From contig CAIMSU010000216.1 in NCBI GenBank assembly GCA_903844155.1, positions 1-40,459 on the forward strand: DNA of 40,459 nucleotides. Direction: 5' to 3'. Shown here piece after piece: positions 2,496 through 26,359 of the stretch. The position numbers and the translations under genes are program-made. How positions within the stretch are numbered: the first letter of the stretch is position 1; every line of letters begins with the position of its first letter. The notes below the pieces were generated by a model. That model searched no databases, was not told where the DNA came from, and worked only from the letters and a program-made list of their open reading frames with translations. The DNA comes from an uncultured Pseudomonadota bacterium (lineage in GTDB: Bacteria > Myxococcota_A > UBA796 > SXON01).

Positions 2496-3566
2496 TCAGT
2501 CCCCTTCCGGCATGGCGAATTCGAAGGCAATCTCCTCGCCGAGCTCCGCCTGCAGAAACTGCTTGAGCCGCTTCTTCACGCGCACCTCGATCTGCCGGAT
2601 CCGCTCCTTGGAGACGTCGTACCGGTCGCCAAGATCCGAGAGGCTGGCCGGCTCCGCTGCGACGAGACGCTCGGTCCAGATCGCGCGCTCGCGCTCGTCC
2701 TCGAGCGTTTCGGCGAAGGCCTTGAGTTTTTCACGGACGATCGAGCCAAGCTCGGTGCTGGCCATCTGCATCTCGGGGTCCTGCGCGTCGTCATCCGGCA
2801 CCAGCTCGCCGAGCGTGCGACCCTCCGGATCGCCGCTAGCCGGGGCGTTCAGGGACATCGCGGGGGCGCGCATGTGCTGGTCGACCGCGATGATCTCGCT
2901 CTCGGGCACCGAGAGGCGCTCGGCGAGCTGCGCGACGGTGGCCGGCTGCCCTTCGCGCAAGAGCCGCTCGCGCTCCTTCTGCAGTTGGAAGAACAGCTTT
3001 CGCCCGTTTCGGGTCGACCCCAGCCGCACAAGCCGGAAGTTGTCCATCAAGAACCGCAGGATCATCGCCCGGATCCAGTACTGCGCATAGCTCGAGAACC
3101 GGATGCCCCGGTACGGATCGTAGCGGGAGAGCGCCTCGACGAGCCCGACGTTCCCCTCCTGGATCAGATCCAGCACGTTGGACCATTGCCGGTGGTACTG
3201 GAACGCGATCTTCACGACCAGACGCAGGTTCGCGGTGACCAGTCGCTCCGCGGCGCTCGCATCGCCCCCCTCGTAATACCGGAGCGCAACCTCGCGCTCC
3301 TCCTCCGGATCCAGTAGGGTGTACCTGCGGATCTCGGCGAGGTAATGGGTCAGCAGGTCGCCCGAGCCCCGGGACTGGGCCGACCGGGCGCCCGAGAGCG
3401 CCGGGAGCTTCGGTACCTTGTTCCGTCGCTCGTTGCCGAGCGGGTCGAGGAGCTCCCCGGATGCGTCGAACAAGCCATCCTCGCTGGCCTCGCCCTCGGC
3501 TCCGTCGGCAGCCTCCGCGGTCTCGCCGGGTTCCTGGTCGTCCTGTTCGCGGTCTCGGCTGGGCAT
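2496..3566 (-). CDS. rpoH: RNA polymerase sigma factor, RpoH (sigma-32) type
   Basis: A 356-residue sigma-70 family factor. An acidic leader of about 65 residues is followed by region 1.2/2.1 (GDLLTHYLAEIRRYTLLDPEEE) and region 2.2-2.4 ('NLRLVVKIAFQYH', 'DLIQEGNVGLVEALSRYDP', 'RFSSYAQYWIRAMI'). Next comes 'GSTRNGRKLFFQLQKE', close to the RpoH box QRKLFFNLR, which argues for a sigma-32 type. Region 4 ends with a helix-turn-helix ('SLSDLGDRYDVSKERIRQIE'). RpoH factors direct RNA polymerase to heat-shock promoters. I chose ATG 3566 because longer starts run into the IMPase gene, which ends at 3607; GGA lies just upstream of this ATG. It sits between the IMPase and heparinase-like genes on the same strand. 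Confidence 0.85.
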   Translation of the reverse strand: MPSRDREQDDQEPGETAEAADGAEGEASEDGLFDASGELLDPLGNERRNKVPKLPALSGARSAQSRGSGDLLTHYLAEIRRYTLLDPEEEREVALRYYEGGDASAAERLVTANLRLVVKIAFQYHRQWSNVLDLIQEGNVGLVEALSRYDPYRGIRFSSYAQYWIRAMILRFLMDNFRLVRLGSTRNGRKLFFQLQKERERLLREGQPATVAQLAERLSVPESEIIAVDQHMRAPAMSLNAPASGDPEGRTLGELVPDDDAQDPEMQMASTELGSIVREKLKAFAETLEDERERAIWTERLVAAEPASLSDLGDRYDVSKERIRQIEVRVKKRLKQFLQAELGEEIAFEFAMPEGD

Positions 3567-3606: not shown

Positions 3607-4416
3607 TCAGAGGGGTTGGAGGGCACCGCGAGCGAGAAGGCGGTCCACCACGGCAGGGATCCCGGCCACGAAGGCGGAGCCTGCGTCGGCGAGGAAGCGC
3701 AGGGGGGCGCCATCGGGGAGGCGTCGAGCGACACCACCGACGGCCTCTATCAGCCCGAGCCCCGTCGCGACATCCCAGGGCTGCCACTCGGGGCCGACGA
3801 GAACGGCGGCGGCCGCCCCCCGCGCCACGAGCGCGAGGTGCGCAGCGGTACCGCCGAGGCAGCGCGCCTTTCCCTCCCAGCCCAGGCGGGCCCCCCGGTG
3901 CAGCCCCGAGGGGACGTACATGACGCCCGGTCCCGCGCCGTCGTTCCCGAGCTTCGGGAGGACCGTCCAGGCGCCCGCCAGACCCCGTCGAAAAAGCGCC
4001 CGACCGGCCACGACAATCCAGGTCTCGGCCAGCCTTGGCAGGCTCGTGATGCCAAGCAGGACGTTGCCCTCAGCGTCGAGCCGCGCGAACGTCGGGCCCC
4101 AGTGGGCGAGACCTTCGACGAGGGCGCTGGTGCCGTCGATGGGATCAACCACCCACCGGCAGCCCGACGTGAGCGTCGCGTGCGTTGGCCCAACGGGACC
4201 GCGCTCCTCGCTCCACAACGAATCGAGCGGAAACAACGCCTGGATCTCGGCGATGAGCATGGCCTCGCAGGCGTGATCGGCGTTCGTGACGGGCGAGCCG
4301 TCCGCCTTGCGATGTACAGCGAGGCCGCCGGCAAAGTGCGCCAGCGCGACCGCGTCCACCGCTGCCACCGCCGCAAGGAGCGCGATCACGCCGCTGTTCT
4401 CAAAGGGGTCGGACAC
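3607..4416 (-). CDS. inositol monophosphatase family protein
   Basis: A 269-residue member of the Mg2+-dependent phosphatase family that includes inositol monophosphatase, HisN-type histidinol phosphatase and CysQ. The family motifs are in order: 'DGSPVTNAD' (residues 39-47), the metal ligand in 'WSEE' (68-71), 'DPIDGT' (91-96) and 'PEWQPWDVATG' near 205-215. Length is normal. It should hydrolyse a small phosphate monoester in the cytoplasm; the exact substrate cannot be read from the motifs. It starts with GTG at 4416 and heads a minus-strand set with the sigma factor (41 nt downstream) and the heparinase-like gene. A -10-like CGGATT lies 11 nt before the start codon, and there is no Shine-Dalgarno sequence. 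Confidence 0.9.
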   Translation of the reverse strand: MSDPFENSGVIALLAAVAAVDAVALAHFAGGLAVHRKADGSPVTNADHACEAMLIAEIQALFPLDSLWSEERGPVGPTHATLTSGCRWVVDPIDGTSALVEGLAHWGPTFARLDAEGNVLLGITSLPRLAETWIVVAGRALFRRGLAGAWTVLPKLGNDGAGPGVMYVPSGLHRGARLGWEGKARCLGGTAAHLALVARGAAAAVLVGPEWQPWDVATGLGLIEAVGGVARRLPDGAPLRFLADAGSAFVAGIPAVVDRLLARGALQPL

Positions 4417-4479: not shown

Positions 4480-6708
4480 GTGGGTAAAGCGTCCCTGCGC
4501 CTGCTCGGGCCGTACGCGGCGTGGTCACCCGCCGTGCGCGAAGCGGTCTACACCCGCGACGGTGCGCCGGACGCGCAGATGCTCGTGCGCGTGGACGGCC
4601 CGGCCGTGTCCGAAGAGGCGATGGCGCGGGCCCGGACCGAGGTGAAGCTCCTCTCCCGATTGCGCCACGATCACGTGCTCCGCATGGATTTTGTGAGCGC
4701 TGTGGGCGGGCGCGTCGGGCAGGTCTACGAGCACCCTGGCGGCGCCGGACTTTCCCGGGTGTGCAACGCCGAGCTGGCCATGGGGCGGCCGTTTCCGCTC
4801 CGGGTCACGGTTGAGATCGCGGCAGGCGTGGCGAGCGCTCTCGATGAGGCCTGCCGGGTGCAGCAGGGGACGATGCGGGTCGACCATCCCGGGCCGGAGC
4901 TTCAGGACCTGCTCATCGAACGCTCCGGACGGACCAAGCTGGCGGGCTTCGTCGTCACGGAAGCCGGCCAGGTTCCGGGCCTGACCCGCCGGCGTGGGTT
5001 CAGCCCGCCCGACGGGGGCGAAGGGACGCCCGCCACGATGACGTGGATGGCGGCCCAATTCTTGAGCACGCTGATCCGCACGACCGGTCGTGAAGGCGAG
5101 GTGACACCGTCCCTGGCCGCAGCGCTGAAGTCCGCGTTTGACACCAACGCGTCGATCCGCCCGGGACCGGGGCAATTCGCCAAAATGCTCCGTGAGATCG
5201 CCGGTACGATGCCCGGTCAGTCGATCCGCGTGTGGGCCGACATCCCGGTCCGCGAGGCGCTGACCAGCGGCCGGAACGCCGACGCCGACGTCGAGACCCT
5301 CCGCGTCGCCCCCGAGCAGCCTGTGATCGCGGGCGGGCCGACGATCGTGCCCGACATGGAGACGGAGGAACCCCCGATCACCGGCCCGGAGCGAACAGCG
5401 GTCCGCGGTTTCCCGGCCTCCCACGGCACCATCGTGCCCGAGATGCTCGACATGGAGACCGAGGAGCCCGGGGTTTCGGCGACGGGGTCCCGCGCGCGGA
5501 TCCCCTCCGCACGCGCGCCGGCGACGCTCCCCGTCCAGCCGCTGCCCATCAGCGTTGGCCCAAGCGGGGGCACGATAAGCGGGGCGACGGTCGTGGACGA
5601 TCCCAGGCCGCCTGCAACCGCACGACCTTCGGCGTCGGCAACGTTGCCGCCGGGGGCGTTCTGGGGCCCGGCCAACCAATCCGGCATGCACCCGTCGGTC
5701 ACCTCGCGGCTTTCGACAGGTGGGCCGACCTTTCCCACGATCACGTCGGAGCAGCCCGTGCAGGTGGGGCGAAAGGGCCCACCCCTGGAGGCCGAGCCAG
5801 GGTTCAACGGGCCCGCGGTGGGCTCGCCGGTGCCGGGATTGGGCGCACCCCCGCTGAGCGGGACCGGCCCGATGCCTGGAGGCCCCGGGCCAGCGATCTC
5901 CCCGTCCGACCCGCTCACGCCACGTCGCGTGGAGCCGATGAGCGATGGGCCGCGCGTGGACCTCGCGATGGACGGCTCGGGGCTCGACCTCCCCGAGCAG
6001 GACCCGGCGCCTCCCTCGCGTACGGGGCTCTACATCGCCGTTGGCGCGGTCCTCGGGCTCTGCCTCGTCGGCCTGATCGCGGCTTGCGGGCTCGTATGGT
6101 GGTACGAACAGCGCGCCGAGACCATCGTCGTCACGCCACCTCCCGCCGGCCTCGCCGACACGCCGAGCGATGCGCCGGTCGCGCCGTCCACGCCCGCAGC
6201 AACGCCTTCCACGCCCCCGGCGACCCCGTCAACGCCCGCGGCCACCCCCCCGGCTGCCCCTGCCTCCGTCCCCGCCACAACGCCCTCGGCCGCCCACCCG
6301 CCGGCCGAGTCGCCCCACGCGCAGCCCTCCAGGCCGGCGACGACCGCCGCGTCACCCGCGGACACCGAGCCCGCGCGGATCACCGGGACCCCTGCGGCCG
6401 ACAGCCGCATCGCCCCGTCCACTGCCCCCCCGGTCACCACGCCACCGCCCCAAGCCCCGGCCGTGCCGGAAGCGCCCGGCCCGTTCGACGTGAGCTTCAA
6501 GCCCGCGGACGGCGACGTGACCTCGCTCGAGGTCCGCTGTGGCTCCGAGTCCGGCTCTGGCGTGATCGTCGACTTGAATCAGGTCCCGAAGGGCACGGCC
6601 TGCAAGGTGACCGGCCTCGGGGGCGCCGCGCCGCTCCAGACGCTCGTCACCATCAGCGCCGCGCGCACCTACACCTGCTTTGCGGGCGGCACCCGCGCCT
6701 GTCGGTAG
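4480..6708 (+). CDS. membrane-anchored protein pseudokinase
   Basis: A 742-residue protein with four parts. Residues 1-250 follow the order of a bacterial Hanks-type kinase, but the catalytic residues are replaced. The VAIK lysine position reads MLVRV (34-38), HRDLKPEN reads HPGPELQD (136-143), and DFG reads LAGF (154-157). The alpha-C Glu context (ARTEVKLLSRLRHDHVL) is kept. Residues 260-510 are a Pro/Gly-rich linker with two copies of a TIVP...METEEP motif (288-297, 317-330). One transmembrane helix lies at about 516-542 (GLYIAVGAVLGLCLVGLIAA). A Thr/Pro/Ala-rich stretch and a roughly 70-residue domain with four Cys residues follow, presumably outside the cytoplasm. This suggests a non-catalytic scaffold or sensor. 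It is followed 63 nt later by the CHAT-like lipoprotein. The start is GTG 4480 with GGAGAG upstream. Confidence 0.75.
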   Translation: MGKASLRLLGPYAAWSPAVREAVYTRDGAPDAQMLVRVDGPAVSEEAMARARTEVKLLSRLRHDHVLRMDFVSAVGGRVGQVYEHPGGAGLSRVCNAELAMGRPFPLRVTVEIAAGVASALDEACRVQQGTMRVDHPGPELQDLLIERSGRTKLAGFVVTEAGQVPGLTRRRGFSPPDGGEGTPATMTWMAAQFLSTLIRTTGREGEVTPSLAAALKSAFDTNASIRPGPGQFAKMLREIAGTMPGQSIRVWADIPVREALTSGRNADADVETLRVAPEQPVIAGGPTIVPDMETEEPPITGPERTAVRGFPASHGTIVPEMLDMETEEPGVSATGSRARIPSARAPATLPVQPLPISVGPSGGTISGATVVDDPRPPATARPSASATLPPGAFWGPANQSGMHPSVTSRLSTGGPTFPTITSEQPVQVGRKGPPLEAEPGFNGPAVGSPVPGLGAPPLSGTGPMPGGPGPAISPSDPLTPRRVEPMSDGPRVDLAMDGSGLDLPEQDPAPPSRTGLYIAVGAVLGLCLVGLIAACGLVWWYEQRAETIVVTPPPAGLADTPSDAPVAPSTPAATPSTPPATPSTPAATPPAAPASVPATTPSAAHPPAESPHAQPSRPATTAASPADTEPARITGTPAADSRIAPSTAPPVTTPPPQAPAVPEAPGPFDVSFKPADGDVTSLEVRCGSESGSGVIVDLNQVPKGTACKVTGLGGAAPLQTLVTISAARTYTCFAGGTRACR

Positions 6709-6745
6709 CACCAGCACGTGATGAGCGCGGGGTGCTTCCCCCGAC

Positions 6746-6765
6746 GATGGTTTCTAGATACCATC
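6746..6765 (+). promoter_or_regulatory. inverted repeat with -10-like hexamer before the CHAT lipoprotein gene
   Basis: GATGGT (6746-6751) and ACCATC (6760-6765) form a perfect 6-bp inverted repeat around a TAGATA hexamer at 6755-6760. The hexamer ends 11 nt before the ATG at 6772. It could be a promoter with an operator over it or a small hairpin. No Shine-Dalgarno sequence is seen here. Confidence 0.35.
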
Positions 6766-6771
6766 TGCGTC

Positions 6772-9720
6772 ATGACACCTCCAGTGCTCCTCTCCCGCCC
6801 GCTGCTCGCCGGCCCTACCCGCCCGCTGCTCGCCGGCCCTGCCCGCCTGCTGCTCGCCGCCCCGGCACTTCTCTTCGTGCTCTCGATGGGCGGCTGCGAC
6901 CAGATCAACGCCCTCATGGGCAAGCCGCCTCCGGCGCCCCCAAAGCCGGTCGTGACGACGCCCGTCGCGCCGCCGAAGCCAAAAGTGGTGGTCACGCCGT
7001 ACTCCTCCGGCAAGTTCGCGGACGCCCTCCCGGATCTCGAAAAAGCGCTCGCCGCCACACCGACGGACGACGCCGCCTGGGACAACGTCGAGATCGCAGC
7101 GGTTCGGGGTGGCCAGGGCGCAGCGCTGCTCGATCGGCTGGCGGCGGACACCGCGATTGGTGGCCGTGTCGACCGCCATCAGGCCCTGCGCGCCGAGCTG
7201 GCGTTGGGGGCGTCGCGCGCGCCTGACGCACTGGCGGCGGCCCGCCTGCTGGAGACGGTCAGCCCCGGTGACGCCGCGGCGCTCACCGTGCGGGCGATCC
7301 GGGCGGGAGCGCCGAAGCCCGACGGCCTGACTCCCGTGGAGGAGGCGCTCCTCAAGGTCGCGGCCGAAAAACCCAGCGCGAAGGTCGCGGGAACGGCGCT
7401 GTCCGCTGATATCGAGGCGCTTCCGGGCGCCCGCGCGGCGCTGCTGCGCGCCGAGATCAAGGCGGCGAGGGGCGACGTTGCCGGGGCGCTGGCCGAGGTG
7501 GCCGCCGCGAAGGCGACAGGGCTGCTCGGCGAACAGGTCGCGATCGCGCAGATCCAGTGGGAGCCGGACGCGGCGAAGGGCTGGGCGGCGACGACGACCG
7601 CGGCGGAGGCCGCATCCAAAGCCCTCGATTTTGTCGGTGCAGCGCGGATCCTGGACGCTGGTCGGGTTCACGCGCTCAGGCAGTGGAAGGCAGGCGCACT
7701 GCTGGAAGCCGCCACGGCAGGCGTGAAGTCGGCCGGCGAACAGACGAACACCGAGGCGATCGCGTGGTACTCCGCCGTTCAGGCAGCCGCAGACCTGCAC
7801 CTTGGCTTGCCCGGGGACGCCAAGACCGCGGCGACGCTCGCGGCCGCGACTCCCTCGTCGGCATCCGTCGGAAAATGGCGATTGGCCCTTGCAGAGTCGA
7901 TGCTTGGGGACCAGCGTGCCGTTGCGGCGGCGGCAGCCGGGCTGCCCGAAGCGGACGCCAAGCCCATCACGGACCTCGCCTCCGCGATGTCCGGGGGCAC
8001 CGCACCGCTCCCCACCGCTACGCTCACCGGCGACGATGCGGCGTGGCAGGCGATCCTCGGCGCAGGATGGGTCGCTGACCGGACGGGCACGGCAGCTCGG
8101 GCAGCCGCCGTCGCGACATCCCCCGACCTCAAGCTCTGGGGCCAGCTCTGGGCGAGCCACGACCCGCTCACCGGCGGGCCCGACACGCCCCAGATGGCGT
8201 CCGAGAACGCCGTTCGCGCGTTCGTCAAGGACGGCACGCCGGGCGCCGTGCTGGACAACGGTCATCCCTACGCCGCCCACTGGCGCGCGGCGCTCTCACA
8301 CGGCACCGCGGCCCCGAGCGACGGCGACATCGGCGCGTTCACCAGGCTCGTCGCGTCCGTGGACGGTGCGTTTGCCGATCAGGCCGGAAACGAGATGAAC
8401 GACCTCTCCGCGGTGCTGCCGGATTGGCGGTCCGGCCCGCTCGCCCCCGTGAGCGAGATGGACGGCCCGCGCGCAGCGGAGATCGAGCGCATCGTCGTCG
8501 CGCCAAGCCGACTCACCGAAGAGGATGCGCTGCCCCTCCGCGCGACCTGGCATGCGTGGCGCCAGCGCGACGAGGACCGGACCCGGCTTTGGACCCACGG
8601 CGTCTCCCCGGTCCCCCCTGCCCTCGGCACGCCGGAGCGCCTGGCAGCGCTCTGGGGTGGTGTCGCCAAGCAGCGGGCGGGTGTGCTCGCGTGGCTCGGC
8701 AACTCCGGCCCGTATCCGACAGGAACCGCAGCGGACATCGACAACGTGGCCGTCGAGCTCAAGCTCCTCCCCCGCAAGGCCGGCACGCTCGCCGATCTGC
8801 GCGACCTCCTCGGACACTCCGCTGCGCTCTCCTTCGTCCCCGCCAGCGACGGTGGCATCGATGCCCTGTACCTGACCGACCACGGCGGCGAGCACAAGCA
8901 CCTGGACGCGAAGATCGCCAAGGATGTCGCCGACTACTCCGCTGGCCTGGAGAACGGGAAAGCGCCGGTTTCGCTCGGCAACAAGATCCGCGCTGAGATC
9001 ATCGACCCCGCTGTGGACGTGTTGACGGGCTACGGCAACTACTTCGTCCTCGGCCCGCCCCCGCTCGGCGCGCTGCCGGTGGACGCCCTCCCCGAGCAAG
9101 AGGAGGGCTTGCGCTTTCTCGCCGCCATCCGCCACACCTTCTACTACCCGACGTTCGCGGCGATGGAGCAGCCCACGTTCACGGACAACGACTTTGTCAC
9201 CACCATGCTCGCTGTCGTTGGCGACGCTGCGGCGGGCGATGCCGTGAAGCGGATCTTTCCGGACGCCGTCATCCTTTCGGGCAAGGAAGCCACGCGCGAC
9301 GCCTGGCTCAAGGAGGCCCCCCGCGCGCGCTTCCTGCACTTCGAGGGTGTGGCGAACACCGCATCGGGCGGTTTTGTGATGCCGGGCGGAGGCACGCTTG
9401 AGCTCGCGGACATGGCCTCGACGCCGCTCGTCGCTCGGACAGTCGCCGTGATCGGGCCCAGCAGCAACGACCTCTCGCTCGCCCGCCTGAGCGCGTTCCG
9501 GGCGGCCGGGGCCGGGGACTTCTTTGCGACCGGAGTCGGCGCAAACACCGCATTCAATGGCAAGATCAGCGAGAAGTTCTGGGACGCCACCAACAAGCGG
9601 CTGCCCGTCTGGAAGGCGGTCGGCGAGCGCGCCCAGGTCGGCGTGGACATGCTCGGTGAAAAGGGCGGCACGTCCCCGGGCCTGTGGGGGGCGCTGCTGA
9701 GCGCCGGCCGGCTGCAGTAG
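6772..9720 (+). CDS. lipoprotein with helical repeats and a degenerate CHAT-like domain
   Basis: A 982-residue lipoprotein. The long N-terminus carries a triple RPLLAGPA-type repeat, then 'LLFVLSMGGC' with the lipobox Cys. A Pro/Lys/Val-rich spacer and about 550 residues rich in Ala-containing helices follow (TPR-like: 'YSSGKFADALPDLEKALAATPTDDAAW'). From about residue 675 the order matches CHAT, the caspase-HetF-associated protease domain: 'SFVPASDGGIDALYLTD', 'NYFVLGPPPLGALPVDAL' (near 755), 'RARFLHFEGVAN' (852-862, where active CHATs read LHFATHG) and 'ARTVAVIGPSSND' (889-900, where active CHATs have SAC). The mature protein has no Cys except the lipobox, so it cannot be a Cys protease. 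I chose ATG 6772 because it gives a sensible signal peptide. It lies between the pseudokinase and RHS genes. Confidence 0.65.
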   Translation: MTPPVLLSRPLLAGPTRPLLAGPARLLLAAPALLFVLSMGGCDQINALMGKPPPAPPKPVVTTPVAPPKPKVVVTPYSSGKFADALPDLEKALAATPTDDAAWDNVEIAAVRGGQGAALLDRLAADTAIGGRVDRHQALRAELALGASRAPDALAAARLLETVSPGDAAALTVRAIRAGAPKPDGLTPVEEALLKVAAEKPSAKVAGTALSADIEALPGARAALLRAEIKAARGDVAGALAEVAAAKATGLLGEQVAIAQIQWEPDAAKGWAATTTAAEAASKALDFVGAARILDAGRVHALRQWKAGALLEAATAGVKSAGEQTNTEAIAWYSAVQAAADLHLGLPGDAKTAATLAAATPSSASVGKWRLALAESMLGDQRAVAAAAAGLPEADAKPITDLASAMSGGTAPLPTATLTGDDAAWQAILGAGWVADRTGTAARAAAVATSPDLKLWGQLWASHDPLTGGPDTPQMASENAVRAFVKDGTPGAVLDNGHPYAAHWRAALSHGTAAPSDGDIGAFTRLVASVDGAFADQAGNEMNDLSAVLPDWRSGPLAPVSEMDGPRAAEIERIVVAPSRLTEEDALPLRATWHAWRQRDEDRTRLWTHGVSPVPPALGTPERLAALWGGVAKQRAGVLAWLGNSGPYPTGTAADIDNVAVELKLLPRKAGTLADLRDLLGHSAALSFVPASDGGIDALYLTDHGGEHKHLDAKIAKDVADYSAGLENGKAPVSLGNKIRAEIIDPAVDVLTGYGNYFVLGPPPLGALPVDALPEQEEGLRFLAAIRHTFYYPTFAAMEQPTFTDNDFVTTMLAVVGDAAAGDAVKRIFPDAVILSGKEATRDAWLKEAPRARFLHFEGVANTASGGFVMPGGGTLELADMASTPLVARTVAVIGPSSNDLSLARLSAFRAAGAGDFFATGVGANTAFNGKISEKFWDATNKRLPVWKAVGERAQVGVDMLGEKGGTSPGLWGALLSAGRLQ
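6796..6867 (+). repeat. three tandem 24-bp units in a signal-peptide coding region
   Basis: Units at 6796-6819, 6820-6843 and 6844-6867 encode RPLLAGPT, RPLLAGPA and RLLLAAPA. Units 1 and 2 differ at one base; unit 3 is more diverged. The copies keep frame, so gain or loss of a unit would change the length of the lipoprotein signal region without breaking the gene. Confidence 0.85.
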
Positions 9721-9835
9721 GCGCCCGACGCTGGCGCTGTCGCTGCTCCTCGGCCCGCTCGGCTGGTCTCGACTCGGGCCCTCACTCGCGGATGGCGAGA
9801 AGATCTGGTTTGACACGGATACCTGCGCCATCCAC

Positions 9836-12800
9836 GTGCGCGCCACCGACCTGGTCGGGCAGGAGCCGGGCCTGGACCTCGTGCGCGAGTGGGACGGCGC
9901 GCGCTGGGTGTACGACGGGGACCTCGGCCTTCCTCCGCGAGCAACCTCGCCCGCACTGGACGTCGGACACCTCCTGACCTCGTTCGTCCTGGACGGGCGT
10001 CTCACCACCGTCCTCCGCGATGGCACGACCTTCACCGGTCTCGGCCGCGACACCGCCCGGATCGAGCGCGTCGCCAGCCGGCCCGCGCTCGACGAAAAGG
10101 GGCACCCCGTGGGCGTTGATGACCGCTGGCTCACGCCGGGCGGAACGGCCACGCTCCGGTGGGCTGGCGGGGCGCTCACGTCGGCCACGACCGCGCACGG
10201 GAAGACCATCTACACCTACGCCACAGGCGGGCTCTCCGGGATCCAGACGGCCGACGGCACCGGCGCGACGCTCGGCCCGGGCCGGATCACCACCGGGGCT
10301 TCCGACTGGCGGTGCACGCGCACGGGCGACACCACGGTCGTCGAGGTCGACGGCGCAAGGTGGCAGGTGACGGGATCGCGACGAGGCCCGCGGTCCGAGG
10401 AGCGCGTCATCGATCCCGGCGGTGGCATCACGCGCACCGAGTGGGTCGACGGGGTCCTCGCGGGCTGGACCGACGTCGCGGGGCGGACCACCACCCTGCG
10501 ATGGGACGAGGGGCACCTGACCGGCGTCCACGACGCTGAGCGCGACTGGACGTTGGCCTGGCACGGCGAGGCCCTCGCCAGCATCGGCGGGGCGGACAGC
10601 GCCTCGCTGGGGTACGATGCCGCGGGCAACCTGGCACAAAGCGCGGACGGGGACGGGGCGCTGACGCCCTGGAACGGGAGCCACGGTCTGGTGACTGACT
10701 GGGGCCCAAGCTCGGAGCGGCGCTCGCTCACCCGCGACGGCACCGGCGCCGTGACGGCGATCAACGACGGCGGGCGCATCAGCATCGCGCGCGACAGCAC
10801 CGGGCGGATCGTGGGTGTCACCAACCCGGCTGGCGGGCAATGGCGGCTGGCGCGCGACGACACGGGCCGGGTCACGGACGTGGTGAACCCCGCCGGGGCG
10901 CACTGGCGACTCTCCTGGGACAGCGTTGGGCGGCCCGCCGCCCTCACCGACCCGACCTTGCGGGAGACGCGCTGGGACCGCGATGAGACGGGGCTGGTGT
11001 CCTACCGGGTCAACGACGAGGCGTGGGTGTTTGGCCGCGACGCTCTACGTCGGGTTCGCACCGTCGAGGACCCCTGGGGCCGGCGCTGGCAGGTCGCTCA
11101 CGACGCGCTCGGCCGCGTGACCGAGCTCGTCCGCCCGGACCTGAGCACCTTCCGGATGACCCGCGACAAGGCCGGCGACCTCGTCGCAGTGGACGACTTC
11201 ACGCTCACGCGCGACGGCGTCGGCCGTCCGACGGCCTGGTCGCGGGGGCACGCATCCGGCACCTGGCGATGGTCAGCGGCGGGGTGGACCTCCGTGCAGG
11301 GCCCCGGCATCACGTTTTCGCTGACCCGCGACGCGGCAGGGCGGGTGAGCGGAGTGGCGTTGGACAGCGGCGAGGCGTGGACGCTCGATCGCGACGAGGT
11401 CGGCCGGGTGACGTCCGTGAACGGCCCGGGCGCCGTCCAGATCGCCCGTGACAGCGCCGGGCGGGTGAGCGGGCTCGCGGGGCCAGCCGGCACGATGCGC
11501 GTCCAGCGCGACGGCCGGGGCCTCGTCACTCGGATCGACGTCGGCGACCGCTGGTGGGTCTACAAGCGCGACGCGGCGGGGCGCGTGCTCACCCTGGAAG
11601 CGCCTGCGGGCGTCCGGCTCGGGATCGACCGCGACGACGCCGGACGGCCCCTACTCGCGCGTTTTGAGGACGGTTCCCTCGCCAAGTACGCCTGGGACGC
11701 CTCCGGCGTCGGCATCCTCCTGCAGGACGCTGGTGATGCGCTCGCCGCCGTCTCGGGCTGGACGACCGACGGGCTTGGACGGGTGACGCGGCTGCGCGGC
11801 GAGATCCCGACCTTGCTGCAGCGCGACCCGCTCGGCGTGCTGACGGTCCAGGAGGGCGCGCAGGTCTGGAGCAGCGCCCCGGACGGCGTGGAGGGGCCGG
11901 ACGGCGCGTCGTTGACCTGGGACGGCACCGGCAGGCCGTTCCACGGGCAGATCCCCGTCGGCGCGCCCCCGCTCTGGGGGGTGGGCGACGTGCAGGTGAG
12001 CTGGGTGACGGAGACGGATGGGACGTTGCGGGCGGTGGTCGGGCAGCGCGGCACCGTCACGCTCGCGCACGACGCGCTGGGACGCCTGGTGAGCTGGACG
12101 CAGGAGGCGCCGGCGACGGGCGCCGCAGGGGCACAGCAGACCCTCATCGCCCGCGATGCGCTCGGCAGGCTGGTCTCCGTCGGCGGGCTGGAGGCGCTCG
12201 GGTGGGAGGGGCTGATGGCGTGGGCGGGCTCTCCGCGCGCCAGCGTCGCGGACGTTGGGGAGTCGAGGCCAGGCGGGGGCGTCGTCGTCGACGCGCGGGG
12301 TGTGCCGCTGCTGACCGCGCCCGGCGGGCTCGTCGGCCTCGCCCCGTCCGGACTTCCCCTCACCGCCGCGACCGGTGATGTCGGCGTCGGTGGCCGGTTC
12401 CAGCCACTCGTGGGCGGACCCCTGCTCGGCCTGGACGACGCGATCGACCCCCTCGCCGGTCAAGCGACGGCCGCACCCTGGCCGATCCCCGGTCGTGAAC
12501 GGGGCTGGGAAGCGCCGGCGGGGAGCGATCCCTGGCCCGACCCCGACAGCGCCGCGCACCCCGACTGGGATCCAGCGCCGTGGGCATCGGACTCGCCGTT
12601 CGCCGATCCCCTCGCCCTGCTGGTCGCCGTCGGCGTCCTCCCCGACGGCGGTCCACGCGCCGCCCACGCGCCGGGCCTCCCCTGGCTGCCCGCGAGCGCC
12701 TCGGCCCACCTCTCCGCGCCGGTCCGCGACCCCGATGCCGTCGACCTCCACCTCGATCCCGTCGACGCCTGGGTCATCGCGCACGCGCGAGCGCCCGTCC

Positions 12801-12943
12801 AGCCACCCGCGCCCGGCGATCTCGCCGCGTTTCTCCTCGACCTGGAGGTCGGCGGTGACGCGACATCCGGCGCCGCCCTCGGCTCCGGCAGCGACCCCGT
12901 CACCTCCACCCTGCTCTTCGCACCCCCCACCTATCAAAACTGA
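9836..12943 (+). CDS. RHS/YD-repeat secreted protein
   Basis: A protein of at least 1035 residues with dozens of degenerate YD repeats of the kind 'RDSTGRIVGVTNPAG', 'YDAAGNLAQSADGDG' and 'HDALGRVTELVRPD'. RHS repeats wind into a beta-sheet shell, often around a toxic C-terminal tip. Near 12385 'VGGRFQPLVGG' weakly recalls the RHS core end, but the last 150 or so residues are Pro/Asp/Ala-rich with no toxin motif I know, and no immunity gene follows. The open frame extends upstream to 9701 and encodes a clear signal peptide (RRPTLALSLLLGPLG at 9719-9763) without any ATG, GTG or TTG. GTG 9836 is therefore only the first conventional start and is probably not the real one. The gene ends inside the first terminator hairpin. 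Confidence 0.8.
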   Translation: MRATDLVGQEPGLDLVREWDGARWVYDGDLGLPPRATSPALDVGHLLTSFVLDGRLTTVLRDGTTFTGLGRDTARIERVASRPALDEKGHPVGVDDRWLTPGGTATLRWAGGALTSATTAHGKTIYTYATGGLSGIQTADGTGATLGPGRITTGASDWRCTRTGDTTVVEVDGARWQVTGSRRGPRSEERVIDPGGGITRTEWVDGVLAGWTDVAGRTTTLRWDEGHLTGVHDAERDWTLAWHGEALASIGGADSASLGYDAAGNLAQSADGDGALTPWNGSHGLVTDWGPSSERRSLTRDGTGAVTAINDGGRISIARDSTGRIVGVTNPAGGQWRLARDDTGRVTDVVNPAGAHWRLSWDSVGRPAALTDPTLRETRWDRDETGLVSYRVNDEAWVFGRDALRRVRTVEDPWGRRWQVAHDALGRVTELVRPDLSTFRMTRDKAGDLVAVDDFTLTRDGVGRPTAWSRGHASGTWRWSAAGWTSVQGPGITFSLTRDAAGRVSGVALDSGEAWTLDRDEVGRVTSVNGPGAVQIARDSAGRVSGLAGPAGTMRVQRDGRGLVTRIDVGDRWWVYKRDAAGRVLTLEAPAGVRLGIDRDDAGRPLLARFEDGSLAKYAWDASGVGILLQDAGDALAAVSGWTTDGLGRVTRLRGEIPTLLQRDPLGVLTVQEGAQVWSSAPDGVEGPDGASLTWDGTGRPFHGQIPVGAPPLWGVGDVQVSWVTETDGTLRAVVGQRGTVTLAHDALGRLVSWTQEAPATGAAGAQQTLIARDALGRLVSVGGLEALGWEGLMAWAGSPRASVADVGESRPGGGVVVDARGVPLLTAPGGLVGLAPSGLPLTAATGDVGVGGRFQPLVGGPLLGLDDAIDPLAGQATAAPWPIPGRERGWEAPAGSDPWPDPDSAAHPDWDPAPWASDSPFADPLALLVAVGVLPDGGPRAAHAPGLPWLPASASAHLSAPVRDPDAVDLHLDPVDAWVIAHARAPVQPPAPGDLAAFLLDLEVGGDATSGAALGSGSDPVTSTLLFAPPTYQN

Positions 12944-12993: not shown

Positions 12994-14874
12994 TCAGGGG
13001 CAGTACGGGCCGACGAGCACGACCTCATCGTCATCCGCAACGCACTCCAGGCTCGACGGCGTGATCCGGGCGATGAGCTTTTCCGTTGGTCCAACGCCGT
13101 GCTCATCGAAGACGAGCGAGTCTGCGAAGGCGCCAGCTGGCAACGCGGCCAAGGTCTTCGTCTCCAGCAACGTCTCGATCCCGCCGTTCACGCCGTAGAG
13201 TGACACTGTCGACCCAGGCCCTTCCTCGACCGCCCCCGTATTTCCCGGGTAGATCCACACGACCAGCCTTCCCTCGGCGCAATCGGTTTCACACACGTCG
13301 CCGGGCGACAAGGTTGGATTGGGCTCGGCGACGCCAAAGCCAGTCGCAGGGTCGCCGCTGCGAAAATTGTTGTAGGACGCCCAGTTTAGCGCTGTGACCC
13401 GCGGGATGGACAGGTCGTCGTTGACATTGGTGATCGAGTACGCGTGCTGGTTCCAGACGGGCCGGCCGGGGCGCCAGGACCGGGCGGCGTCGCCGATGAC
13501 GTGAATGCCGTTCCAACCCGGGTAGTAGCTGTTGTTGCTGCCAAGCACGATGTCGGCGGAGCCGTCGCTGTCTACGTCCGCGATGACGGGGTACTCAAAC
13601 GCGGTGGCCGAGGCGTGGTCGGTGTCCTGGAGCTCCACGGCGCCGGTCGCGCCCGAGAAAACCCAGAGCGTGTGTTCGTCCGCGTAGACGACTTCGGCAG
13701 CCCCGTCGCCCTCAAAATCGAAGACGGAGGAGCCGGTCATGTTGGACGAGACGTCGGAGACGGGCATCTGCCATAGTGTGGAGCCGTCCCGCCTCAGCAC
13801 GGTGTAGAAGTTGGCGCCGGCAACGCCGATCTCCGGCTCGCCGTCGCCGTCAAAGTCCGCGACCGTCGGCGGACCGCCGTAGCCCCCAAAGTTGGGATTC
13901 ACGGTCCATAGGGAGCGACCGTCCGTGTCTGTCAGCGTGACCGTGCCGCCCGACACCTTCACGACCTCGGGCAGCCCGTCGTCGTCGAAGTCCGCGACCG
14001 CTGGGAACCCGTCGGGCCCGCCGTCGTTCCACAGGACAGACCCGTCCATGCGATAGACCGTGTTCCCGGCGACGATGTCGAGCACGCCGTCGTCGTCCAT
14101 GTCTGCTGCGAATGACAAGGCGGTGTCCGTGCCGTCCCACCACGCGTTCTGGCTGCCCTTGCCGCCCGCGCCGACGCTCAAGACGTTGCCGTCGGCGTCG
14201 AACACCTGGCGTCCGAGGATGACTTCGGCGCGACCGTCACCGTCCAGATCCGCGATCGCGGGAGCGCCGTAGTGCGAGGCTTCGGTGCCGGCCGCCCACT
14301 CAAACGAGCCGTCGCTCGCGAGGCACACGAGCGCCGCTGAGTCCGATGGCACGCAGATCTCCGGCGAGCCGTCGCCGTCGAGATCGCCGAGCGCCACGCC
14401 CGCCGCACCCTGGAAGTGGTGGCCGCCGGCCTGCGCCAGGTCAAACTTCACACCGGAGCCATCGCCCGAGAGGGCGACGAGGTCGCCGGTGCCGTTCCAA
14501 TTCTCACCGGTGAAGGCGGTGAAGACGATGTCGGGGATGCCGTCGCCATCAATGTCACCGACCGCGGGCGTCGCCATCACCTGCGCGTAGCCCGGAAAAT
14601 CGGCGTTCTCCGTCCAGGACCACTCGACGACCGGGTCAAAGGTCCCAACCACGGGGGCCGCCGCGCAGGTCTCGTCCGAGGAGCCGGGGAAGCCAGGGAG
14701 GACGCCCGAAGGGCAGCTTTCTACGGTGCTATCGCCGGCGCCGGTGTCCGCGAGCGTGCTGCCGGTGTCAAACGGCGTGGACCCGTCCGAGCTCCCCTTG
14801 AAGTGGTAGTCTGTGCAAGCGGCCAATGGCAAGAGTATTGACGCAAGCGCCACTACTCGCCGGGCGCGGGTCAC
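12994..14874 (-). CDS. FG-GAP/VCBS repeat lipoprotein
   Basis: A 626-residue protein starting VTRARRVVALASILLPLAAC, a lipoprotein signal with a basic n-region and lipobox LAAC. A short Ser/Thr/Asp/Gly linker follows. The main body holds at least eight FG-GAP/VCBS units with Ca2+-binding loops of the form DxDxDGxxD: DIDGDGIPD, DLDGDGSPE, DLDGDGRAE, DMDDDGVLD, DFDDDGLPE, DFDGDGEPE, DFEGDGAAE and DVDSDGSAD. Such repeats form a beta-propeller. The last 200 or so residues ('RPVWNQHAYSITNVND', 'GRLVVWIYPGNTG') form a further module. It presumably acts at the outer membrane or cell surface in binding. GTG 14874 overlaps the lysyl oxidase stop by 4 nt, so the two proteins are probably made together. 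Confidence 0.88.
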   Translation of the reverse strand: MTRARRVVALASILLPLAACTDYHFKGSSDGSTPFDTGSTLADTGAGDSTVESCPSGVLPGFPGSSDETCAAAPVVGTFDPVVEWSWTENADFPGYAQVMATPAVGDIDGDGIPDIVFTAFTGENWNGTGDLVALSGDGSGVKFDLAQAGGHHFQGAAGVALGDLDGDGSPEICVPSDSAALVCLASDGSFEWAAGTEASHYGAPAIADLDGDGRAEVILGRQVFDADGNVLSVGAGGKGSQNAWWDGTDTALSFAADMDDDGVLDIVAGNTVYRMDGSVLWNDGGPDGFPAVADFDDDGLPEVVKVSGGTVTLTDTDGRSLWTVNPNFGGYGGPPTVADFDGDGEPEIGVAGANFYTVLRRDGSTLWQMPVSDVSSNMTGSSVFDFEGDGAAEVVYADEHTLWVFSGATGAVELQDTDHASATAFEYPVIADVDSDGSADIVLGSNNSYYPGWNGIHVIGDAARSWRPGRPVWNQHAYSITNVNDDLSIPRVTALNWASYNNFRSGDPATGFGVAEPNPTLSPGDVCETDCAEGRLVVWIYPGNTGAVEEGPGSTVSLYGVNGGIETLLETKTLAALPAGAFADSLVFDEHGVGPTEKLIARITPSSLECVADDDEVVLVGPYCP

Positions 14875-15791
14875 GGCATGCACACAGGAGGCGAGGTCGG
14901 GTCGGGCAGGGTCACGGTCACGCTGGAGGTGTTGTTGGTGTCGTCGAGCTCGCGGAGCTGGTTGTTCGGGTCCACCGTGACACTCAACGTGTAGTCGCCC
15001 GCGGGCACCCCGGTCACATCGATGAATTGGCAATCCAGGGCACTCTGGTAGATGTCCGTCCACCCAATCGAGAGGCCCTCATCCCCGCAGGTGTAGTAGG
15101 GCAACGGCGTGGCGTCCGGGCCAACGGGCGCCGAGTCCATCAGGCAGAACGCCTGCTTTCGGCCCGTCATCGTCGTCGCACCGGAGCTGTCGAGCAGGGC
15201 GTAGGAGGCGTAGCCCGAGTAGTGGTAGTGTTGGTGGCAGTCGGACCACTCAAACTCGTCCGGATGATCCTCGGGAACACCGAGCGTTAGGGCGCCGGTG
15301 CCAAGGTTGGGCGTGGAGACGCTGAAGCGCAGCACGCGGCGAACCCCGGTGGTCGTGATGCAGCCCTCGATCACGGCACAGTCGGTGTCGGCGAACGTGT
15401 CGTCCTCGACGACCCATGAGTTGGCGATCAAGCCGCCGTCGACTGTCAGGTCCGGGAGCGGACAGGTGCCGTAGATGTCGGGATCGGTGCATTCGGCGAC
15501 GGCGCCTTCCTCGCAGCAAGGGGTGCAGCAGATCTGCGTCGCGTCGCAGGCAGAGGGGTCGTCGGGGTTGCAGGGCACGGGGGCGGTGTCGCCGGTGTCG
15601 CCCGAGTCCGGCTGTGTGTCGCTGTCGAAAGCCGAGTCAGCGGTGTCGGACTGTGTGTCCGTGTCGGTCGTCTGTGTGTCGGTGTCCGTGTCGACCGACG
15701 AGTCCCCAGCCGGCTTCCCCGGACATCCGACCAGCAGCCCCGTGAGCAGGGGAAGGGTGAGCGCGGGGGACATGCGGGGAGTGCTCAACAC
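14871..15791 (-). CDS. lysyl oxidase lipoprotein
   Basis: A 306-residue protein from GTG 15791. The N-terminus VLSTPRMSPALTLPLLTGLLVGC has a lipobox Cys at 23, then a Thr/Asp repeat linker (34-70) and a Cys-rich stretch (74-110). The C-terminal half matches animal lysyl oxidase: copper motif WSDCHQHYH (182-190), the Lys of the quinone cofactor in GRKQAFCLMD (K212), the Tyr partner in GWTDIYQSALDCQFIDV (Y248), and the ending 'ELDDTNN'. Lysyl oxidases use copper and lysyl-tyrosylquinone to oxidise lysine side chains to aldehydes that cross-link. Here it would act on the cell surface. GTG 15791 gives a charged n-region and has a -10-like CGGATA 10 nt upstream; ATG 15773 is the alternative. The FG-GAP lipoprotein follows with a 4-nt overlap. 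Confidence 0.88.
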   Translation of the reverse strand: MLSTPRMSPALTLPLLTGLLVGCPGKPAGDSSVDTDTDTQTTDTDTQSDTADSAFDSDTQPDSGDTGDTAPVPCNPDDPSACDATQICCTPCCEEGAVAECTDPDIYGTCPLPDLTVDGGLIANSWVVEDDTFADTDCAVIEGCITTTGVRRVLRFSVSTPNLGTGALTLGVPEDHPDEFEWSDCHQHYHYSGYASYALLDSSGATTMTGRKQAFCLMDSAPVGPDATPLPYYTCGDEGLSIGWTDIYQSALDCQFIDVTGVPAGDYTLSVTVDPNNQLRELDDTNNTSSVTVTLPDPTSPPVCMP

Positions 15792-15836
15792 GCCGTCCCC
15801 ATATCCGCCGATCCGGTTTCTTGATACCCCCGGGCG
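15792..15836. promoter_or_regulatory. divergent promoter region, lysyl oxidase / YggS
   Basis: A 45-nt spacer with a -10-like hexamer for each direction: TTGATA (15821-15826), 10 nt before the YggS ATG, and CGGATA on the minus strand (15807-15802), 10 nt before GTG 15791. Neither gene has a good Shine-Dalgarno sequence, so both transcripts may be nearly leaderless. No strong -35 is seen. Confidence 0.4.
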
Positions 15837-16589
15837 ATGTCCATCGCCGACAACCTCGCGCTGGTGCGCGCAACCATCGACGCCGCCTGCACGACTGCGG
15901 GTCGGAACACCGCCGATGTCGTGCTCATCGCGGTGTCGAAGACCCGCCCGCTGGCCGAGATTCGCGAGGCCGCCGCGGCGGGACAGAGCGACTTCGGGGA
16001 GAATTACGCGCAGGAGCTTCGCGACAAGGTCGACGAAGCCGCCGGCGGCGCGAGCGTCGGGCTGCTGCTCACGTGGCACTACATCGGCTCGTTGCAGACG
16101 AACAAAGCCAAGTACGTGGCGACGCGCGCGGCGCTCGTCCACGATGTCGACCGGCTGGAATTGGCCGAGGAGCTGGGGAAGCGGGCGCGAGTCGCGCGCT
16201 GGACGGGCGACGCGCCCACCCCGCTCGGTCTGCTCGTCGGCGTGAACATCGGCGAGGAGCCGCAGAAGTCCGGAGTCATGCCCCGGGATGCCCTGGTGTT
16301 TGCCGCGGCGATCGCCCGGATTCCCGGCGTCGCCCTCCGCGGGTTGATGTGCATTCCGCCAGCCGATGCAGACCCGATCCCTCACTTTGAGCGGCTCCGG
16401 GCGCTGCGAGACGACGGCCTCGCGCGCGGTCTCCCGCTCCGGGAGCTTTCGATGGGGATGAGCCACGACTACCCACAGGCCATCGCGGCTGGCGCGACGT
16501 TTGTGCGTGTTGGAACTGCGATCTTTGGCGCGCGAAGTCTCCGTGGGTTGGCGCCGGCTGGGCAGGCCCCGGACGGGGCGCCGGCGTGA
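15837..16589 (+). CDS. yggS: YggS family PLP homeostasis protein
   Basis: A 250-residue protein of the YggS/PLPBP family, single-domain TIM-barrel proteins that bind pyridoxal 5'-phosphate and keep its free level in balance. Visible motifs are 'LIAVSKTRPLAEI' with the PLP lysine at 35, 'DFGENYAQEL' (52-61), 'WHYIGSLQTNK' near 80-90, 'GLMCIPP' and the C-terminal 'LSMGMSHDYPQAIAAGATFVRVG', which holds the phosphate-binding site. It is slightly longer than average because of an Ala/Pro-rich tail. It leads a five-gene plus-strand chain in which every junction is a 4-nt overlap. A TTGATA hexamer lies 10 nt before the ATG. Confidence 0.95.
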   Translation: MSIADNLALVRATIDAACTTAGRNTADVVLIAVSKTRPLAEIREAAAAGQSDFGENYAQELRDKVDEAAGGASVGLLLTWHYIGSLQTNKAKYVATRAALVHDVDRLELAEELGKRARVARWTGDAPTPLGLLVGVNIGEEPQKSGVMPRDALVFAAAIARIPGVALRGLMCIPPADADPIPHFERLRALRDDGLARGLPLRELSMGMSHDYPQAIAAGATFVRVGTAIFGARSLRGLAPAGQAPDGAPA

Positions 16590-21700: not shown

Positions 21701-22099
21701 ATGCTCCTCTTCGTCACCCTCGCCCTCGCCGCCGAGCCGGATCCCGCCACGGTGAGCCCGCTGCTGCTTGAACGTCACCAGGATCGGGACGACCAGATCC
21801 GCGGCGTTCGCTCGTTGACCTTGAAGGTGGCCGCGGCGGTGGCAGTGTGCGGCGGCCTGGAGTGGGGCGTGATGCAGTTGCCCCTGGGCTCCTCGATCGG
21901 GCCCGACCCGGGACAGACCGAGTTCACGCTCGGAATGGTGGGCGCTGGCGCCACCCTCGCGCTCGGGAGCGTCATCGGCGCCGGGATTGCCCTCGGGAAC
22001 GAGGAGCACCGGTACGAATCGGCCGCCGCGGAGCGCAATGCGGTGTCGGCGACCCTCACCATCGGACCGGGCGCTGTGGGCATCCGCGGCACATTCTAG
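21701..22099 (+). CDS. small membrane protein, tandem paralogue 2
   Basis: A 132-residue protein with the same plan as its upstream neighbour: a hydrophobic start (MLLFVTLALAAEP), a charged stretch (LLLERHQDRDDQIRG), two hydrophobic segments (LTLKVAAAVAVCGGLEWGV and GMVGAGATLALGSVIGAGIAL), and the end 'EEHRYESAAAERNAVSATLTI' then 'GPGAVGIRGTF'. The shared '(E/N)HR(F/Y)...GPG.VG..GTF' tail and order of segments show common ancestry, although identity is low overall. GGGAG lies directly against the ATG, too close for a normal Shine-Dalgarno, with GAGG further upstream at 21681. It converges on the barrel-like protein gene, with 17 nt between the stops. Confidence 0.65.
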   Translation: MLLFVTLALAAEPDPATVSPLLLERHQDRDDQIRGVRSLTLKVAAAVAVCGGLEWGVMQLPLGSSIGPDPGQTEFTLGMVGAGATLALGSVIGAGIALGNEEHRYESAAAERNAVSATLTIGPGAVGIRGTF

Positions 22100-22116
22100 C
22101 CGGGATCGGCGGCCCC

Positions 22117-23256
22117 TCAGAGGCCTACGGACAGGCTGATCCGCATCGCCCCGAGCGCGATCGGGCTCGGCGGCAGGGCCCATGGCACGAGCGCGCCCGC
22201 CACGGACGCTACCCCCGACGTCACCGTCCGACCGAGCCCGAGCGCACCGCCGAGGCTGACGCCGATCGATCGCGCGTCGTGCCGCGACGTGATCGCGACC
22301 TCACCCGCGGGCCCCACACCCCAGGCCGGGAGGTACAGGCGCGCCGCACCGCCGCACGCTGTCGTCGGGCACATTCGCGGCACGCCCTCGATGAGCGTGA
22401 CGTCCCCGCCGAATTGCGCGCGCACCGCAAGCCCGGACGCCAGCGGGCGCTCCAGGGCCAGCGCGATCCCGCCCGCGCCCGCCCACGGCGAGACCACGGC
22501 GCGGCCCTCGTCCGTCACGTAGGCCACCGGCGCCCAGCGCAAGCTCCCGGCGAGGCGAAGTGCCCCCGCCGACGCTGCCAGCGGCCCGTCCAGCGTCACC
22601 GCAAACGTCCCCCCGCGGCCCGCCGCCGACGGACTCGCGACGAATTCGACGCCGATCTCGCCCTGGATCCGCAGCGCCCGCAGCGCGCCGAGGCCGCCCA
22701 GCCCGGCGGCATCCCCGGCGAGCGTCACCTTCGCCGTCTGGCCTGCGATGACCGTGACGGTCGCGCCATTGACGCGCCAGGCGCCGGCCGGCAGCGCAAC
22801 ACGGGTCGGCAGCGCCTGGGGCGCCTGCAGCCGCTGTGCGACGGCCGCGGCGATCCGCTTCTGCTCGGGGTCGACGACGGGGGTCTCGGGCGCGAGGTCC
22901 AGTGCGGCACGCGCAACCGGCCCAGCAACCACGACCCAGCCCCAGGTCGCGGCGACGGTGTCGTGGCGTGCCTGCCAGGCGTCATGCGCGTCCGCGTCGA
23001 GCGCCAGATCGGCGGCCTGAGCGCTCCAGACCAGCACGTGGTCGATATCGCCAAGCTCCCACGCGGCGTCGACCCCGATGCTGTACAGCGCGAAGGCATC
23101 GCCCGACGACGGGTCCGCGAGCCCGGCGTCCACCTCCGCGACTGCGTCTGAAAAATAGCCGCGATGAAGGAATATCGAAGCTTGATCGACGTGAATGGAT
23201 CCCGCCCTCGCCACGCCAACCAGGGCCAGGGCAGCGAGAGCGAGCGGCACCATCAC
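22117..23256 (-). CDS. secreted protein with helical N-terminus and barrel-like C-terminus
   Basis: A 379-residue protein with a signal peptide (MMVPLALAALALVGVARAGS). Residues 20-130 are helical and contain a TPR-like stretch ('YFSDAVAEVDAGLADPSSGDAFALYSIG'). Residues 200-379 alternate in strand-like fashion ('GIALALERPLASGLAVRAQFGGDVTLIEG', 'SIGVSLGGALGLGRTVTSG') and end 'MRISLSVGL', which suggests an outer-membrane barrel. 'MCPTTACGG' supplies two Cys residues. It is the last gene of the ABC-transporter operon, starting at GTG 23256 (or ATG 23253), with a 4-nt overlap with the fused permease-ATPase gene. No family is recognised; its place suggests an outer-membrane step for the same substrate. 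Confidence 0.6.
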   Translation of the reverse strand: MMVPLALAALALVGVARAGSIHVDQASIFLHRGYFSDAVAEVDAGLADPSSGDAFALYSIGVDAAWELGDIDHVLVWSAQAADLALDADAHDAWQARHDTVAATWGWVVVAGPVARAALDLAPETPVVDPEQKRIAAAVAQRLQAPQALPTRVALPAGAWRVNGATVTVIAGQTAKVTLAGDAAGLGGLGALRALRIQGEIGVEFVASPSAAGRGGTFAVTLDGPLAASAGALRLAGSLRWAPVAYVTDEGRAVVSPWAGAGGIALALERPLASGLAVRAQFGGDVTLIEGVPRMCPTTACGGAARLYLPAWGVGPAGEVAITSRHDARSIGVSLGGALGLGRTVTSGVASVAGALVPWALPPSPIALGAMRISLSVGL

Positions 23257-25403: not shown

Positions 25404-26359
25404 GCCTCCGCCCGAAGCCGCGGGTCCCACGCCCGGCGCAGCAGGTCCAACGCGGCGCCGACGACCACGGTTGTACCGGTCAACGCGACGACTACGCCTG
25501 TTGCAACCGGTATATCTCGGGCTTCGACCGCCCGCCACAGCAGGTCACCCGCGCCCGGCAAGGCACACAGGCGCTCGACCACCACCAGCCCGCCGACGAT
25601 CGGGGGAAAAGCCGCTTGCGCACCCTCAATGAGCGGAACGACCCGGTGTCGCCACTTCAGGGATCGCAGCGCGCTGACGGTCATTCCCCGCGCTCGCGCC
25701 GCCAGCACGAACCCGGACGCGTCAATCCGGGCGTCCGCCTCCGCCAACCGCGCGGCCACGGCAGCCACCCCAGCCGACCCGACGCCCAGCGCGACGAGAG
25801 CGAGCGCGTCCCGCACCACCCCGCCCTCCATCGGCAACGCGAAGAACGCGGGCCGACCCCACCATCCCGCCGACATCCCAGCCCAGACCGCGGCGTTGAT
25901 CCCCTCGATCGCGCCGAGCGCCAGCAGGACGACCGGCAGGGTGGAGAGGCCGACGACGACCTTCTCGCCCCACCCACGCCCCCGAACCGCCGCCCCAAGG
26001 CCCACCGCCACCGCCCAGGCCGCCACCAGCATCGGCGCCGACGCACCCATCGCCGTCGCCACGAGACCACCGACCGAATCGCCCGGCCTCACCGTCCACG
26101 AGCTGCCCCACGCGCCGATCAGCGCATGCCATGTGCCCGCGATCACCCGCGTAGCGAGCGGGCCGCCCAGACCCCATTCGGCAGTGAGCTGCGCCCGAAG
26201 GCCCGGATCCGGGAGCGTGTCGATCGCGTCGCCCGGCGCCAGGGCCACCAGGATCTGCACCAGGACGATCGCCCCCACCCACGCGAGCAACCATCCGGAC
26301 AACCGTCCCAACCAGGTCTGCGCGAACGCTCGCGCCCGGATGCCCGGGGCGTCGGTCAC
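25400..26359 (-). CDS. oligopeptide-type ABC transporter permease, DppB-like
   Basis: A 319-residue integral membrane protein. It starts VTDAPGIRARAFAQTWLGRLSGWLLAWVG, has several membrane segments (GWLLAWVGAIVLVQILVALA, MLVAAWAVAVGLGAAV, VVVGLSTLPVVLLALGAI), and shows the DppB/OppB-type loop 'FVLAARARGMTVSALRSLKWRH' before 'IVGGLVVVERLCALPGAGDLLWRAV'. GTG 26359 overlaps the binding-protein stop by 4 nt; a GTG 12 nt upstream is less likely. It would pair with the permease half of the next gene to form the channel of a peptide importer. It is shorter and less conserved at the N-terminus than typical DppB. Confidence 0.88.
   Translation of the reverse strand: MTDAPGIRARAFAQTWLGRLSGWLLAWVGAIVLVQILVALAPGDAIDTLPDPGLRAQLTAEWGLGGPLATRVIAGTWHALIGAWGSSWTVRPGDSVGGLVATAMGASAPMLVAAWAVAVGLGAAVRGRGWGEKVVVGLSTLPVVLLALGAIEGINAAVWAGMSAGWWGRPAFFALPMEGGVVRDALALVALGVGSAGVAAVAARLAEADARIDASGFVLAARARGMTVSALRSLKWRHRVVPLIEGAQAAFPPIVGGLVVVERLCALPGAGDLLWRAVEARDIPVATGVVVALTGTTVVVGAALDLLRRAWDPRLRAEA

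Follow-up and report, generated by a model that had tools for sequence, protein, structure and literature searches.

Three consecutive genes on one strand

The window (the whole stretch of DNA analysed, 40,459 nucleotides, about 70% GC) is the entire contig C216 of an 8.1-Mb genome assembly in 375 contigs (G000). Its plus strand carries three consecutive, co-directional genes. They encode a pseudokinase (4480-6708), a lipoprotein with a CHAT domain (6772-9720), and an RHS protein (about 9722-12943). The first two genes are 63 nt apart. An earlier note on this DNA had described three consecutive genes on the same strand, and the open reading frames confirm that description. (When the window's own three proteins were compared to Pfam, the only matches were to RHS repeats; the pseudokinase and the CHAT lipoprotein had none.)

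We compared the locus across a class sample of 71 genomes, in which families f1, f2, f4, f5, and f6 account for 42 genomes and a sixth family, f3, for 21. A wider comparison used a sample of 284 genomes from the phylum. Scanning genome contigs with a single protein returned no relative; an alignment of eight rows, used as the query, returned 10 named loci. The relatives with names are environmental MAGs, deposited under the labels Myxococcales, Deltaproteobacteria, or "uncultured proteobacterium," and several of their titles bear the names of lakes. (A record labelled Bifidobacterium breve, L077, also has the cluster, with 64% identity for the CHAT protein. This label is almost certainly wrong.)

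A pseudokinase and its active sister

The first gene has a GTG start codon and encodes a protein of 742 amino acids. AlphaFold predicts a confident kinase fold at residues 1-275 (positions 4480-5304; pLDDT mostly above 90), a single membrane helix at residues 515-546 (6022-6117) that is flanked by disordered, proline-rich linkers, and a C-terminal beta domain at residues 668-742 (6481-6705), which is predicted to be periplasmic. The matches that Foldseek found for the model are kinases, and 10 of 16 relatives match Pkinase in Pfam, so both sequence relatives and structure point to a bilobal kinase fold. The residues expected of an active protein kinase are missing, however. The window's protein lacks the VAVK lysine and the aspartates of the HRD and DFG motifs. 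Among the 30 relatives that can be aligned at the catalytic positions, none has either aspartate, and the position of the VAVK lysine is mostly arginine. Thus, a kinase fold without catalytic residues, as the earlier note had proposed, is found both in the window and across the family. The note's single crossing of the inner membrane agrees with the one helix in the model. Sequence and model together identify this protein as an inner-membrane pseudokinase.

The C-terminal domain has four cysteines (C26, C47, C72, and C80) that are invariant in 23 sequences. A second kinase, present in most of the order's genomes (also in f3), ends in this four-cysteine domain too. The second kinase retains the Lys, HRD, Asn, and DFG residues in 9 of the 10 cases that we examined. 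In the window's own genome, it is an active-looking Ser/Thr kinase on another contig (C234, 3-2585; L107). Because the two proteins have a common architecture and share the four-cysteine domain, the pseudokinase looks like a sister of an active receptor kinase. (In one f3 genome, at L118, 8619-10481, the second four-cysteine kinase likewise lacks the catalytic residues.)

Pseudokinases of this type are also present at the same site in 6 of the 11 loci from f3 that we read, and none of the 11 has the CHAT or RHS genes. Hence, the pseudokinase predates the trio, or is at least independent of it.

A lipoprotein with an inactive CHAT domain

The second gene encodes a protein of 982 amino acids. 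The lipobox cysteine (residue 42; 6895-6897) is nearly invariant in the family. Residues 70-660 (6979-8751) form TPR-like helical repeats in the AlphaFold model, with weak matches to TPR profiles. The C-terminal part (residues 683-980; 8818-9711) is predicted, at lower confidence, to be an alpha/beta domain. We assigned this domain to the CHAT family (PF12770) via its relatives: 9 of 25 match the family, with a best E value of 4.6e-18, while the window's protein has no match. A CHAT protease would have a His-Cys dyad, but when we aligned 33 relatives to the HMM, not one had the catalytic histidine or cysteine at the corresponding position. The earlier note's account of a lipoprotein with helical repeats and a CHAT fold that lacks the cysteine nucleophile therefore holds, and sequence and model agree in making this protein a lipoprotein.

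An RHS protein without a variable toxin

The third gene encodes a YD-repeat shell protein. All 24 of the RHS proteins that we compared to Pfam match RHS_repeat, which places them in the RHS/YD-repeat family, and the YD-repeat core is homologous to shells of solved structure. Rhs polymorphic toxins have a variable toxin domain after the core, but these proteins do not. In the window, the DPLAG motif is followed by a tail of 160 amino acids (12461-12940). Every RHS protein with a complete 3' end has a homologous tail, which after the corresponding motif (DPxxG) is 142-172 amino acids long in 26 of the 27 proteins that we measured. (The exception, L067, with 245 amino acids, contains a run of unread bases.) Pfam identified no toxin or PAAR domain in the RHS proteins.

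The start codon is ambiguous. The reading frame opens at 9701 and has no ATG, GTG, or TTG before 9836, yet an N-terminal motif that is conserved in the relatives (LLGPxGWxxLGP) begins upstream of 9776. So, either translation begins at a non-canonical codon or an indel is present in the contig at this point. (In three genomes of the same genus, L053-L055, the RHS frame starts with a valine codon shortly past the stop codon of the CHAT gene.) Many relatives have hydrophobic, signal-like N-termini. The earlier note had described the RHS protein as large and secreted; secretion is clear from these N-termini of the relatives, but not from that of the window's own protein.

The trio is conserved across an order

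In 22 genomes, drawn from five families, a single contig carries the pseudokinase, CHAT, and RHS genes one after another, with protein identities down to about 25%. A recurrence this wide, at this divergence, is more than chance. The earlier note had proposed looking for the same gene order in related genomes, with the prospect that homologues might turn out to be scattered and the genes adjacent only here; 22 contigs from five families clearly show otherwise. The conserved cluster is real, and its members lack catalytic residues or a toxin.

Within f1, f2, f4, f5, and f6, the CHAT gene is present in 35 of 42 genomes (with a partial match in G018) and the RHS gene in 38 of 42. Neither was found in any of the 21 genomes of f3, and CHAT was not found in the rest of the phylum sample of 284 genomes. 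The RHS gene occurs once per genome, and the genes of the trio are single-copy and vertically inherited. Single lineages lack just one part each: the pseudokinase is missing from the site in G022 and G043, RHS in G008 (which has the pseudokinase and CHAT), and CHAT in G047 (which has the pseudokinase and RHS). This implies that none of the parts is strictly needed by the others. In G028, the pseudokinase has neither CHAT nor RHS beside it. Overall, comparison of the genomes gives good support to the view that the three genes are one vertically inherited, lineage-specific system.

We also considered the correlation of evolutionary rates as a sign of physical coupling, and rejected it. Across 11 genomes, after removing the distances for the sigma factor and the phosphatase (described below), the correlations among the three families were 0.16-0.40, which is not above the correlation of CHAT with the phosphatase. 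Most of the correlation is shared phylogeny.

The site and its neighbours

Two divergent neighbours on the minus strand are conserved with the trio: a gene of the inositol-monophosphatase family (3607-4416) and a gene for a sigma-32/RpoH-like sigma factor (2496-3566). RpoH is the nearest match to the sigma factor, with a score below the curated cut-off (240.5 vs. 323.1 bits). The trio occupies a fixed site: where the contigs reach, the order is the sigma-32-like and inositol-phosphatase genes, then the trio, and then, in many genomes, tig-clpP-clpX-lon. Genes for tRNA-Lys and tRNA-Leu, mostly with tRNA-His as well, lie between the trio and tig in the loci that we scanned. In the window's genus (g1), tig-clp-lon does not adjoin the trio in the stretches that we read.

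The sigma factor gene also adjoins the site in f3, so its proximity to the trio may be positional inertia. Three of the 11 f3 loci that we read (L142, L143, and L146) have the phosphatase gene and then tig directly. For instance, L142 (G042, 5200-6350) has neither the trio nor a detected pseudokinase, and the phosphatase gene is followed by tRNA-His/Lys/Leu and tig.

We made three other observations about these surroundings. Just downstream of the trio, on the minus strand (12994-16466), the window encodes FG-GAP repeat and lysyl-oxidase family proteins in overlapping frames; a lysyl-oxidase match also lies downstream of RHS in L052, L053, and L055, which are from the same genus. Positions 22001-26000, which span an ABC-transporter-like open reading frame, have a strong AT skew (0.18-0.28), unlike the rest of the window. 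Finally, L044 has pieces of a sigma factor on both strands at the end of its contig (1-1051), which is probably an assembly artefact.

What might the three proteins do?

Given that the trio has been kept together across five families, its proteins very probably work as one system. We infer that they act together, as a non-catalytic sensor or scaffold that spans the envelope. The earlier note had suggested an envelope assembly that uses enzyme folds as binding modules; such a putative assembly is compatible with all of our findings.

Our best explanation, which we put at somewhat less than an even chance, is that the three proteins are disarmed binding parts, with the pseudokinase sensing the state of the envelope and passing a signal inward. 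Each protein would lack the catalytic or toxic part of its fold and would serve to bind. The RHS shell, once exported, and the lipoprotein with its TPR and pseudo-CHAT parts would function at the outer membrane or within the periplasm. Through its four-cysteine periplasmic domain, the pseudokinase would sense their state (the folding of an envelope client, its load, or its integrity) and relay it through the inner membrane to its own kinase-fold domain. Binding would be the probable mode of action of that domain, which might, for example, regulate the active sister kinase or the sigma-32-like pathway next to the trio. Several kinds of evidence led us to this explanation. First, the gene order recurs on 22 contigs, with the distribution of CHAT and RHS described above. 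Second, the near-invariant lipobox cysteine and the signal-like N-termini of the RHS proteins point to the envelope, as do the helix and four-cysteine domain of the pseudokinase. Third, the catalytic loss is family-wide, there is an active paralogue of the pseudokinase, and the RHS tail is constant. Fourth, DdvA (discussed below) is the solved structure that most resembles the CHAT lipoprotein, and an RpoH-like gene lies next door where the contig reaches.

An alternative that we think possible, if doubtful, is a module for structure or biogenesis. In this view, the RHS shell and the TPR lipoprotein would assemble a surface structure or act as its chaperones, with the pseudokinase as a non-signalling anchor in the inner membrane. 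That all three proteins are non-catalytic, that the RHS protein is toxinless with a fixed tail, and that the genes are single-copy and vertically inherited would all fit this. But the pseudokinase has the architecture of an active receptor kinase and occurs without CHAT or RHS in f3; a role in signalling would explain this better than one as a dedicated anchor.

Two other possibilities seem unlikely to us. One is wholly disarmed trans-envelope signalling, in which RHS and the pseudo-CHAT protein are the sensor, the pseudokinase controls its sister kinase via the common four-cysteine domain, and the output is heat-shock-type transcription and proteolysis. The other is a serious rival: three functionally unrelated genes might have been kept at a slowly evolving site by inertia. 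The sigma-phosphatase and tRNA-tig-clpP-clpX-lon blocks around the trio are conserved too, and each gene of the trio can be lost alone. Inertia does not readily account for the tight spacing on one strand, however, and it is weakened by two other results: CHAT and RHS are jointly present or absent in nearly all genomes, with both absent from f3, and the trio stays together in g1, where it has no adjoining tig-clp-lon block.

RHS proteins are commonly toxin carriers, and with RHS_repeat in all 24 relatives, we considered an antibacterial or anti-eukaryote toxin system in which the CHAT protein and the kinase are accessories. This is very improbable: instead of varying, the C-terminus is homologous throughout the family and nearly constant in length, Pfam finds no toxin or PAAR domain, and there is just one RHS gene per genome. 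We rejected the toxin reading because of the constant tail. Least credible is a CHAT-type immune system, with a protease acting on gasdermin or another effector: CHAT proteins do occur in immune systems of the protease-effector type, but here the catalytic dyad is in 0 of 33 relatives, the protein is anchored as a lipoprotein, the genes are stably and vertically inherited at one site that is not a defence island, and we rejected the defence reading because CHAT and RHS have no match in PADLOC.

To our knowledge, descriptions of RHS shells are almost confined to toxin carriers and teneurins, those of CHAT domains to proteases, and those of kinase folds to enzymes. An order-wide conserved system of three disarmed folds would show that such folds can be recruited as binding parts of the envelope. 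A receptor kinase and a pseudokinase with one common periplasmic domain would also allow allosteric signalling by a bacterial pseudokinase to be tested directly, and the toxin-less RHS shell would have a possible bacterial role.

Comparison with known systems

The earlier note knew of no system that joins a dead kinase, a dead CHAT protein, and an RHS protein, and neither do we. PADLOC does not place the trio in a defence family: it has no match for CHAT or RHS, and the pseudokinase has only a match with E = 0.008. Our search of the open-access literature on CHAT with RHS, pseudokinases, or lipoproteins turned up no description of the trio.

No useful link between the CHAT lipoprotein and solved CHAT structures came from sequence searches. 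Its best Foldseek matches are to DdvA, a transmembrane anti-sigma factor (PDB 8rot and 8rw5; E = 1.5e-4 and 2.0e-4). These alignments cover nearly the whole chain, but the TM-scores are low (0.23-0.29), and at the sequence level the protein does not match 8rot. In Myxococcus xanthus, the ECF sigma factor DdvS is under the control of DdvA (PMC4374960). A DdvA-type anti-sigma factor combines an anti-sigma domain and a membrane helix in a TPR-like protein, but the window's protein has a lipobox at its N-terminus, and neither a membrane helix nor an anti-sigma part is apparent in the model. DdvA is nonetheless a precedent: its overall fold is similar, and it is an envelope protein that governs a sigma factor, although the window's protein lacks DdvA's defining features.

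Lower in the Foldseek list, again with low TM-scores, are separase and Csx29, in which helical repeats are likewise followed by a CHAT or caspase-like domain. Csx29 has one pseudo-caspase domain and one active caspase domain (PMC10028731). The window's protein differs in that it lacks the catalytic histidine and cysteine, is anchored in the envelope, and has no Cas7-11 or cohesin-type partner among its neighbours.

The RHS protein has a YD-repeat core that is homologous to the shells of Tse5, Tre23, and the teneurins. It differs from them in that its family has a conserved, non-toxin tail of near-constant length and, in many relatives, a signal-like N-terminus. Similarly, the pseudokinase is laid out like the PknB-type receptor Ser/Thr kinases of bacteria, with a cytoplasmic kinase fold, one membrane helix, and an extracytoplasmic sensor domain. 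Unlike those kinases, it lacks the catalytic residues, its sensor is a four-cysteine domain instead of PASTA, and it has an active sister kinase elsewhere in the genome.
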